Source: Akkermansia muciniphila (GTDB taxonomy: Bacteria > Verrucomicrobiota > Verrucomicrobiia > Limisphaerales > BJHT01). Taken from it: a stretch of 47,539 nucleotides of DNA. Below the pieces are notes generated by a model. That model did no database searches, was not told the DNA's origin, and saw nothing but the letters and a program-made list of their open reading frames with translations. A program made the translations under genes and the position numbers. Positions within the stretch are counted from its first letter, which is position 1. Every line of letters starts with the position of its first letter. Positions 11,188-33,715 of the stretch are shown here, piece by piece. Where the stretch lies: positions 1-47,539 of the forward strand of contig CAMAUZ010000064.1 in the NCBI GenBank assembly GCA_945861535.1. Direction: 5' to 3'.

Positions 11188-11348
11188 GGAGCGCGGCCTT
11201 CAGGCCGCAGAAACGTCCGCCCGTACCCGCCGTCACCAAGAACCCCAACGCCTCCCGTCACCCACCTTTTGGTGATTCAACAAGAGCGTCAGGAAACTCG
11301 CGCCTCCTCTACCGGCCGCACGTTTCTGCGGCCTGAAGGCCGCGCTCC
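11188..11348. repeat. GGAGCGCGGCCTTCAGGCCG palindromic element, copy 1
   Basis: The left arm GGAGCGCGGCCTTCAGGCCG continues CAGAAACG and is matched by CGTTTCTGCGGCCTGAAGGC then CGCGCTCC at the right end. The middle holds CCCGTCACCCACCTTTT. The same arms occur at 33609-33715 and 47143-47305, and a worn copy at 43225-43395. Together with the two preceding elements it fills the gap between the helicase and prepilin genes. Confidence 0.88.
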
Positions 11349-11365
11349 GACTGCATGGTTGCGGC

Positions 11366-14224
11366 TCAGTGCCGCCGCAGGATGAGGCGGTGGTCGATGC
11401 GTTTGGTCTGGGCGTATTCGAGCGGGGGAAGTTCGGTGAGGGTGGGGGATTCGGTCTGGTTCAGGATGGCGCGGGCGAGGGCCTGGAAGGCGGTCCAGCG
11501 CGGCCACTCGAGGGGCGGGGCGTGGGCGGTTTGGCGCAGCAGGCTGCGCCATTCAATGATGACGCGGTCGATGTCGCCGACGCCGACGAAGGGCGACACC
11601 CAGCGGGTTTTGTCGAGCGGGTTTTTGTGGACGGCCGCGACGATGTTTTCCGCGCCCGCGCCGTAGCCGGGGGGCACGCCGTTTTCAAGGTAGCCGGGAA
11701 TATTTTGGATGCCGAAGTGCGACTGGCAGACCATCGCGAGGCGGCCGCCCCAGCGGTTGTCTTCGCCGCAAAAACGGAAGCCGCCGTCGAGGTCGGCGAG
11801 GTCGTAGATCAAGTCTTTGAGCGGGTAGCGCTCGTCCTCGAGCGCGACGGCGATGGCGAGGCCATCGCCTTGTGAAAACCGGCTGACGACGCGGCCGCGC
11901 CGGGTGGGCGCGCCCGCGGCATCGACGAGTCCAAGCCGCCGCCAGAGCATCGCGACGCCGGTGGCGGCGGAGAGCTTGGTGCAGATGGGAACGTGCGGAC
12001 AACGCGCGCAGTCGGGCGGCTCGACCATGCGCGTCGGCGGGTGCCAGAGCGCGACGCCGTGGGCATCGACGGGCACGCGGAGGGTGAGCTGGGCGACGCT
12101 GACGAGGGCGACGATTTTGTCCGGGTGATGGGCGAAGCGGACGACGGGGGTGCGGACTTTGGCGAGGTGCGCGGTGACGAGGGGTTCGATTTTTTCACGC
12201 CATTCGGCGAGCGAGCTGTTGCGGCCTTTCCAGCCGGTCGCGCGCCGCGCCCATTTGGCGAGCACGACGCGGTCGTCGGGGAGGAGGTCGGCGACGGTCT
12301 GGGCGCGGCCGAAGGTTTTCACACCTTCGGTTTCGGCGAGGAGGCAGATGCCGCCGGTGCCGATTTTTTCGAGCGCGGCTGGCTCGGTGAGCGCGGGGCG
12401 GAGGGAAGGATGAATTATGAGGGATGAATTATGAAGGGGGAGGGGCGGGGGCGGAGGCGATTCGGGGGCGGCGGTCGGCGTGGATTCGGCTGGCGCGGGT
12501 GTCGATCTCGGCGGAATCGGAGCGAGGGGATCGGGGTTTTCGGCGTGGTCGTGAGGCGGAGCACCGGGCATTGCTCGGCTCGTTTCGCTGGTGGTCCGCC
12601 TGGCCGAGCAATGCTCGGCGCTCCGTACCATTGCGGTGGCGCTGGAGCGTTCGTGGCTCGTGGTTTCGTTGGAGCCGCTGCGGGCGGGCCGCCCGCGCTC
12701 CTGATCTGGAGCGCCGAGCATTGCTCGGCTGGGATCGTTCGTCTCGCGTCCGGCCGAGCAATGCTCGGCGCTCCGGGGTGGCGCGGTGGCCGGAGCGTTG
12801 GTGATGAAAACCTGGCTGACGGGCGTGTCGAGTTCGGGCGGGTAGTTTTGCCATTCGCCGCGGCTGTTGAGGATCTGGCGAATGCGGTGGCGGACGTGGC
12901 GGGCGCGCTCGGCGTCGGTCATCAGGCCGCAGGGGGCGGCGGGATTTTTCAGCGCTTCCTCGACGCCGAGCACGATGGGTTTGGTCGTGAAGAGGCGGTC
13001 CTGCACGCGGACGGCTTCGGCGAAGGGTTCGCGGCCGTTGTCGGCGGCGAGGGCCATGACGCCGAGAAGCGCGGACCAGTCCACCAGTCCGCCGCGGGCG
13101 AGGTGACAGGGGCGGCCGTCGCGGAGGCGGAGGTCGTTTTGCGTAACGAGGACGTAGCCGATTTCATCAATGCCCCGGCGGCCGGCGCGGCCGAACATCT
13201 GGAGGATTTCGTCGGCACGCAGCGGAAATTCCTGGTAGTCACGGCGGTAGGAATCGCCCGCGAGCGCGACGCTGCGGAGGGAGAAATTGATGCCGGCGGC
13301 GAGACCCATGGTGGCGACGACGACGCGCAACTGGCCGGCCTTGGCGAGCGGTTCGATGACCCCGGCGCGGGCCGCGTAGCTGAGGCCGCTGTGGTGATAG
13401 CAGATCCGGCTGCGGAGAAGGCGGGCGAGGTCGTCGCCGACGAGGAGTTTTTGCTCGGGCGTGAGTGTGAGGGGATTGGGCGTGGGCAGGTTGCGCGCGA
13501 GTTCAGCGGCCATCTGTTCGGTGGCGTTGCGGCGCGGGGCGAAGATGAGAATGGGGCCGAGGTCTTCGGCAAGCGCCTTGGCGACGAAGCGGGGCCAGTA
13601 GCCGCGCACTTCCTGGGGAATGTGAAATTGCAGGGAGTCGGAAAAAATCTCTTCCAGCGGCACGGGGCGTTCCTCGTGGCGGATGAGGGTGACCTGGCGA
13701 CCGAGGCGCTGGAGCCATTTCACGGCGTCGTGGGGATTGGCGACGCTGCCGCTGAGGAGGAGGAGCTGCGTCTGGGGCGGCGCGAGGGCGAGGGCGAGTT
13801 CGTAGTTCAGGCCGCGGTCGGGGTCGCCGAGCATCTGGTATTCGTCCACGACGAGCAGGGCCGGGCCTTCGCCGCGAATGAGGCGGCTCTTCTGGGTTTC
13901 GAGCGTGGCGACGAGGACGGGGGCTTCGAGATTCTCCGCGAGGTCGCCGGTGGCGATGCCGACGTTCCAGCCGCGGGCGCGCCACTCGGCAAGTTTGTCG
14001 TTGGCGAGCGCGCGCGTCGGGACGGTGTAGATGGCCTGGCCGCGATTTTTTCCCTGCTGCGACCAGAGTTCGAAGATGAGGGTTTTGCCCGCGCCAGTCG
14101 GGGCGTGGACGATGACGTCGCGGCCCGCGCGCAACGCGGCGACGGCCTGCTGCTGCCAGAGGTCGGGGACGGCGACTTGGTTGAGCGTCGGAAGATTCTG
14201 GAGCGGGTCGGTGATGCGCGTCAC
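11366..14224 (-). CDS. Large DEAD/DEAH-box (Ski2-like) helicase with repeat-derived insert
   Basis: A 952-residue superfamily 2 helicase. Walker A is HAPTGAGKT (about residues 37-45), the Walker B box is VVDEYQ (about 125), motif III is SGSVANP, and motif VI is QMFGRAGRRG (about 345), as in Ski2/Hel308-type RNA or DNA helicases. A late cysteine group, CARCPHVPIC (about 738-746), could bind metal. Residues about 478-604 are low-complexity Ser/Pro/Ala sequence. The DNA coding for them carries at least two copies of a GAGCAATGCTCGGC palindrome and a GAATTATGA palindrome, all in frame. No ATG lies near the conserved start; I chose GTG at 14224 because sequence further upstream overlaps the CPBP gene region. 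The cellular role is not known. Confidence 0.85.
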   Translation of the reverse strand: MTRITDPLQNLPTLNQVAVPDLWQQQAVAALRAGRDVIVHAPTGAGKTLIFELWSQQGKNRGQAIYTVPTRALANDKLAEWRARGWNVGIATGDLAENLEAPVLVATLETQKSRLIRGEGPALLVVDEYQMLGDPDRGLNYELALALAPPQTQLLLLSGSVANPHDAVKWLQRLGRQVTLIRHEERPVPLEEIFSDSLQFHIPQEVRGYWPRFVAKALAEDLGPILIFAPRRNATEQMAAELARNLPTPNPLTLTPEQKLLVGDDLARLLRSRICYHHSGLSYAARAGVIEPLAKAGQLRVVVATMGLAAGINFSLRSVALAGDSYRRDYQEFPLRADEILQMFGRAGRRGIDEIGYVLVTQNDLRLRDGRPCHLARGGLVDWSALLGVMALAADNGREPFAEAVRVQDRLFTTKPIVLGVEEALKNPAAPCGLMTDAERARHVRHRIRQILNSRGEWQNYPPELDTPVSQVFITNAPATAPPRSAEHCSAGRETNDPSRAMLGAPDQERGRPARSGSNETTSHERSSATAMVRSAEHCSARRTTSETSRAMPGAPPHDHAENPDPLAPIPPRSTPAPAESTPTAAPESPPPPPLPLHNSSLIIHPSLRPALTEPAALEKIGTGGICLLAETEGVKTFGRAQTVADLLPDDRVVLAKWARRATGWKGRNSSLAEWREKIEPLVTAHLAKVRTPVVRFAHHPDKIVALVSVAQLTLRVPVDAHGVALWHPPTRMVEPPDCARCPHVPICTKLSAATGVAMLWRRLGLVDAAGAPTRRGRVVSRFSQGDGLAIAVALEDERYPLKDLIYDLADLDGGFRFCGEDNRWGGRLAMVCQSHFGIQNIPGYLENGVPPGYGAGAENIVAAVHKNPLDKTRWVSPFVGVGDIDRVIIEWRSLLRQTAHAPPLEWPRWTAFQALARAILNQTESPTLTELPPLEYAQTKRIDHRLILRRH
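12410..12436. repeat. GAATTATGAGGGATGAATTATG repeat inside the helicase gene
   Basis: A tandem GATGAATTATGA word at 12410-12436 is coded in the helicase frame as HNSSLIIHPS. Composition and phrase differ from the surrounding helicase sequence, and the word looks like one arm of an intergenic-type element. Confidence 0.6.
12558..12624. repeat. GGAGC...GAGCATTGCTCGG palindrome in helicase gene, copy 1
   Basis: Left arm GGAGCACCGGGCATTGCTCG, right arm CCGAGCAATGCTCGGCGCTC plus C. It lies wholly inside the helicase reading frame and keeps it open; read in frame it yields RSAEHCSA and SRAMPGAP. Copy 2 is 84 bases further on. Confidence 0.85.
12671..12701. repeat. GCGGGCGGGCCGCCCGC palindrome in helicase gene
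   Basis: A short element GGAGCCGCTGCGGGCGGGCC followed by GCCCGCGCTCC, again with GGAGC/GCTCC ends. It sits between the two GAGCAATGCTC elements and remains in frame in the helicase gene. Confidence 0.6.
12708..12774. repeat. GGAGC...GAGCATTGCTCGG palindrome in helicase gene, copy 2
   Basis: GGAGCGCCGAGCATTGCTCG at the left and CCGAGCAATGCTCGGCGCTC plus C at the right; almost identical arms to copy 1 with a different centre. In frame it yields RSAEHCSA and SRAMLGAP. Confidence 0.88.
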
Positions 14225-33608: not shown

Positions 33609-33715
33609 GGAGCACGGCCTTCAGGCCGCAGGAACGTGCGCTGGGCGGAGACGTTGGAACGTTTGAAAGCGCACAGTTCCAGTCGTGGCTTTCTGCGGCG
33701 TGAACGCCGCGCTCC
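33609..33715. repeat. GGAGCACGGCCTTCAGGCCG palindromic element, copy 2
   Basis: GGAGCACGGCCTTCAGGCCG at the left and CGGCGTGAACGCCGCGCTCC at the right, with an inner GAACGTGCG / CGCACAGTTCC pair. It is a shorter, more diverged copy of the element at 11188-11348. It lies between the kinase/phosphatase gene and the NarI-like gene. Confidence 0.78.

Follow-up and report, generated by a model that had tools for sequence, protein, structure and literature searches.

Palindromic repeats of REP-like type lie in frame within the linker of a Ski2-like helicase gene in a Limisphaerales genome

Results

Palindromic repeats within an open helicase frame

The DNA analyzed here (the window, 47,539 nucleotides) makes up contig C64 in a draft genome of 7.9 Mb and 169 contigs (G000), with relatives among the Limisphaerales/Pedosphaera-type Verrucomicrobiota. 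Its minus strand carries a gene for a Ski2-like helicase: the protein has the Pfam domains DEAD and Helicase_C, and its nearest solved structures, by PDB sequence match as well as by fold, are Ski2, Mtr4 and Hel308. Upstream of the GTG start, the frame is open to 14488 without a stop, and it crosses repeats of three kinds without a stop: two inverted palindrome pairs of 67 bp each, a single palindrome of 31 bp and a tandem word of 14 bp. The features are as follows.

11366..14224, minus strand: Ski2-like DEAD/DEAH helicase gene, 952 aa, GTG start at 14224 (Pfam, PDB, our own gene finder, start codon position)
12410..12820, minus strand: interdomain linker, residues 469-605 of 952 (related-locus alignment, AlphaFold2)
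12405..12434 (copies at 12408-12434): 14-bp tandem word, GGATGAATTATGA x2; peptide LHNSSLIIHPS
12558..12624: REPIN-like doublet 1, 67 bp; left arm slightly degenerate (GGAGCACCGGGCATTGCTCGGC); peptide RSAEHCSARRTTSETSRAMPGAP
12672..12702: single REP of a second family, 31-bp palindrome, GGAGC..GCTCC; (A)GGAGCGCGGGCGGCCCGCCCGC on the minus strand
12708..12774: REPIN-like doublet 2, 67 bp; arms complementary at 22/22 positions; peptide RSAEHCSAGRETNDPSRAMLGAP

The sequence-only reading had placed repeats in frame within this gene, and the counts bear it out: GAGCATTGCTCGG and its partner arms match seven times in the window with at most one mismatch, compared with 0.13 matches expected from shuffled sequences, and all seven fall at 12566-12768, inside the open frame. 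The 67-bp element consists of two inverted 22-bp arms (GGAGCGCCGAGCATTGCTCGGC) with a 23-nt spacer between them, and GCGGGCGGGCCGCCCGC, at 12680-12696, is the inner part of the 12672-12702 palindrome. Exact copies in G000 number 89 for the element sequence of the sequence-only reading, 19 for the GC palindrome core and 7 for the 14-bp word, while the reversed control sequences of the three repeats gave 0 exact copies each. All three kinds of repeat named in that reading are thus multi-copy genome-wide, but what it took for single elements are inverted doublets, and GAATTATGA is non-palindromic, being part of the 14-bp tandem word. A double copy of this word also lies in a second large gene (L063, G000:C23:87382-87408), where it is read in frame as PLHNSSLIIHPSL. 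Further intergenic GGAGC...GCTCC palindromes with a different core (GGCCTTCAGGCC) are found in the window at 11190-11350 and 33609-33715.

The repeats occupy a long, predicted disordered linker between conserved parts

Against the sister species, the helicase parts on the two sides of the linker have dN/dS values of 0.058 and 0.090, and the gene is therefore under purifying selection on both sides. Together with the alignment of related helicases, this confirms that the insertion lies between conserved domains, as originally proposed. The C-terminal part (11366-12409, about 345 aa) is conserved and contains an invariant CxxC...C motif; nothing in Pfam matches it, and it seems to be an uncharacterised domain common to the order.

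The linker measures 137 aa, compared with a median of 30.5 aa at 100 related loci, and most relatives have 12-50 aa; a smaller first comparison with 24 relatives gave the same picture of a long linker. The added length had first been put at about 120 residues. The linker is indeed long for this group of helicases, but the gain over the related loci is about 105 residues. In an AlphaFold2 model built with 59 aligned sequences, residues 480-602 lack secondary structure and score about 30 in pLDDT, whereas most blocks of the C-terminal part exceed 90, so that the linker is predicted to be a disordered stretch between folded parts. In the sister species (G001), the two contigs that carry the gene break off within the linker. 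Just ahead of the break, at about the same site, stands a GGAGC...GCTCC element that is read in a different frame and yields a different peptide, and the sister linker also carries an GGCAGAAAAATGGGG-type repeat.

The 67-bp elements form a REP-like family beside RAYT genes

A covariance model of the 67-bp element gave at least 137 strand hits in G000, corresponding to at least about 68 elements, and at least 73 and 68 strand hits in the sister G001 and in G003, respectively; with up to 150 candidates scored per genome, 20 of the 30 order relatives gave no hits. Scanning 416 kb with a sensitive method yielded few further copies, all of them degenerate. GGAGC begins nearly all of the 68 copies, and no GTAG stands in the positions preceding it, so that the head is neither GT(A/G)G nor CGTC. 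The doublets are predicted to fold into hairpins of -46 and -58 kcal/mol.

On contig C94, a 67-bp element lies on each side of a RAYT gene (L015, G000:C94:21223-24453, 1396-2107), in inverted orientation, which makes the element a REPIN-like doublet. The 190-residue core of the encoded protein scores 83.4 bits against NCBIfam REP_Tyr_transpos (NF047646; cut-off 80), matches TnpA-REP 4ER8 and contains the motifs NHVHV and REYWDTF, that is, an HUH motif and a catalytic Tyr. The closest RAYT in G003 (L261, G003:C33, 130-930) is 74-78% identical and also adjoins a 67-bp element. Other RAYTs in the group have different GGAGC-headed palindromes on their flanks, and the RAYT of G007 has the GCGGGCGG type, the kind found at 12672-12702. 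The GGAGC/GCTCC ends, likened in the sequence-only reading to those of intergenic families, therefore correspond to the heads of REP-type elements adjoining RAYT genes. Judged from these sequences, the 67-bp family appears to work like REP/REPIN systems, but with GGAGC in place of the GTAG head.

In the C94 gene, the N-terminal 40 residues are out of frame with the intact 190-residue core, through either a frameshift or a misassembly. The G003 gene has one stop codon and carries a GGAGC-headed REPIN-like doublet (660-739) in frame within itself. As the RAYT copies of both G000 and G003 look damaged, the 67-bp family may be immobile now. One RAYT of G000 (L017) is flanked by GTAG-headed repeats, and GTAG-headed GTAGCCGCCGACGTGAGGAGGCGGA...TCCGCCTCCTCACGTCGGCGGCTAC inverted repeats stand beside GGAGC elements in G000 at L209/L243 (dnaE region) and L182/L238.

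Arms are more conserved than spacers

Several elements, intragenic ones included, occupy the same site in both species of the genus. Over the 68 copies, the arms are 97% identical to their consensus, and the spacers are about 48% alike, compared with 33% after shuffling. Between orthologous copies, the divergence is 2.3% in the arms against 14.2% in the spacers (p about 1e-8), which is an upper estimate of the contrast because the pairs were picked for detectability of both elements. Arm-to-arm compensatory covariation over the 68 copies amounted to five events and was not significant against shuffles (p 0.15); two compensated changes noticed by eye are accordingly not taken as proof. The arms in G000 are near-identical although the spacers have strongly diverged and the cognate RAYT looks damaged.

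Copies inside other genes are read in all codon phases

Gene calls with a simple gene finder of our own, trained on the fetched regions, placed 23 of the at least 68 copies in G000 within genes, 41 between genes and 4 across gene ends; about 20 genes other than the helicase thus carry such insertions. Most of the host genes could be identified by Pfam; they include a FadB-like enzyme, AddB, a U32 peptidase, ValRS, an Eco57I-type methylase, UvrD, DnaE, a PSCyt2/PSD1 protein, Lnt, UvrA, ApbE and a ketoacyl synthase, among others, and the element lies mostly between domains or forms a loop within a domain.

The codon phases of the 23 intragenic copies are distributed 11/6/6. The left arms are free of stops in all six frames in 68 of 68 copies, and whole elements are open in six frames in 65% of cases, compared with 10% of shuffled sequences and 13% of random genomic 67-mers. 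Openness is the same for copies between genes as for those inside them, and read-through is therefore a property of the GC-rich palindrome rather than the product of selection for coding. A genome-wide avoidance of stops in one frame, which the sequence-only reading had raised for checking, does not fit these results. Element lengths modulo 3 do not differ between intragenic (13/6/4) and intergenic (26/8/7) copies. Since the intragenic lengths do not share one value modulo 3, the in-frame outcome required further indels, or else selection, at every site.

Three candidate explanations were discarded on these data: coding in a single frame, as in the Rickettsia palindromic elements, because all three codon phases are used; functional selection for openness, because intergenic copies are equally open; and selection for an in-frame element length, because the lengths modulo 3 are alike inside and outside genes.

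Different repeats have lengthened this linker in further lineages

The longest helicase linkers elsewhere in the Limisphaerales contain palindromic repeats of other families. An CCCTCACCC...GGGTGAGGG element is present in the helicase linkers of L023, L075, L088 and L074 and in those of L068 and L089, and the L031 linker holds a mixture of hairpins with 51 matches in its own genome. Hairpins of the GGCAGGTTGCC type are another palindromic family by which this linker is lengthened elsewhere in the order. With the L068 linker as query, each of five genomes gave 58-99 matches, so that the CCCTCACCC repeat is strongly multi-copy in five other genomes that carry it in this linker; genome-wide in G015, this repeat gave weak partial matches only. 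On a tree of the helicase without its linker, with the repeat labels assigned by eye from the linker sequences, four changes are required to account for the repeats in the linker, and well supported branches force three of these; for the CCCTCACCC family alone, two are required. Across several lineages, unrelated repeats entered the linker independently of one another.

Discussion

The insert in the helicase gene is best read as short mobile palindromes that have accumulated there. Its two 67-bp elements are REPIN-like doublets, the GC palindrome a single REP of a second GGAGC-headed family, and the 14-bp word a minor tandem repeat. The elements probably spread as single-stranded hairpin DNA handled by RAYT, an HUH tyrosine transposase, and the flanking of RAYT genes points to mobilisation of this kind. 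They would have landed widely and survived inside genes only where the frame was kept and the stretch was disordered; GC-rich arms that are stop-free in every frame would be readable in any orientation and phase, and in the helicase the linker that they lengthen is a flexible one, joining the core of the enzyme to the C-terminal domain. We consider it highly probable that a disordered linker tolerates RAYT-type palindromes that come to lie in it in frame, and we infer that the linker peptide is translated and that the linker is neutral.

Three other explanations bear on the same observations. The elements might be kept as RNA or DNA structure (mRNA hairpins or protein-binding sites), with their coding location incidental to a regulatory role. 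The very stable predicted folds, the near-identity of the arms over 68 copies beside variable spacers, and the slower change of arms than spacers between orthologs all fit such a role, but compensatory changes between arms do not exceed those of shuffles, the ortholog pairs were preselected for detectable elements, and the element is absent, among the matches listed, from the 20 relatives mentioned above; we regard this explanation as unlikely. The linker itself could have a job, in that a long disordered tether alters helicase function and palindromes are recruited as its raw material. Lengthening of the linker at least four times by unrelated repeats would agree with this, as would the many host genes that act on nucleic acids. 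However, the codon phases differ among copies, the GGAGC-ended element at the same site in the sister species encodes a different peptide from another frame, and 12-50 aa suffice in most relatives. Since tolerance at disordered sites predicts the same pattern, a role for the linker seems to us quite unlikely.

The long frame could also be an artefact, either because GC-rich DNA leaves a spurious frame open, because a repeat connects two separate genes, or because the draft assembly was put together at a repeat. With its 169 contigs the genome is indeed a draft, and the sister contigs break within the linker, but the helicase and C-terminal parts form one open frame in nearly all relatives, both parts are under purifying selection, and many independent genes show the same kind of in-frame insertion, so that an artefact is very improbable. 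Tolerance is the simplest account of the lengthened linker. It accounts for everything seen and does not call for the repeats to make useful new linkers; the sequence-only reading had suggested them as a possible source of new protein linkers.

In-frame palindromes within genes are known in principle, from the REPs of Opitutus and the palindromic elements (RPEs) of Rickettsia. Our search of the literature on REPIN/RAYT systems in Verrucomicrobia returned one paper only (PMC3733652). It reports intragenic GTAG REPs as most numerous in Opitutus terrae (Verrucomicrobiota), names uvrA, UvrD helicases, recBCD, DnaE-type polymerases, tRNA synthetases and RNA helicases among the hosts of intragenic REPs, and describes different REPs at about the same site in the recB genes of two Xanthomonas species (PMC3733652). 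The elements described here resemble the Opitutus REPs in being short palindromes, often dimers, linked to RAYTs and read through inside genes (PMC3733652). They differ in their head, which is GGAGC and not GTAG or CGTC, in that a third of the copies are intragenic, and in that a single helicase linker has been struck by unrelated repeat families, in about four events among the lineages.

Descriptions of the REPINs of Pseudomonas fluorescens (PMC3116915) and of RAYT-REP pairs (PMC2817692) place the elements outside genes and give them a GT(A/G)G head. Common to these and to the present family are an inverted REP pair with a spacer, a RAYT with its cognate REPs inverted, and copies in the tens to hundreds (PMC3116915, PMC2817692); unlike those, the elements here have a GGAG head and are often intragenic. 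The RPEs are palindromic repeats of about 150 bp that lie in frame in unrelated genes and encode a conserved peptide (reviewed in PMC10969869). In-frame palindromic insertion into unrelated genes is shared with them, whereas the RAYT-type element is shorter (67 bp), uses all three codon phases and lacks a conserved peptide in a single frame. Three things are new: the family with a GGAGC head, the large proportion of its copies that lie inside genes, and the repeated insertion of palindromic repeats into a single linker.

There is a small chance of a wider picture, in which the Limisphaerales hold a broad GGAGC-headed RAYT/REP superfamily whose six-frame-open palindromes are a general and repeated source of disordered interdomain linkers in housekeeping proteins, with some proteins, this helicase among them, as preferred acceptors used again and again, and with functional effects of the lengthened linkers. 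The present case is a clear and testable one of selfish palindromes becoming protein sequence at scale, in about 20 predicted proteins of one genome. It makes a question of linker evolution open to test, namely whether mobile palindromes feed linkers or are merely tolerated in them. With it, the range of RAYT/REP systems comes to include a GGAGC-headed family in the Verrucomicrobiota.
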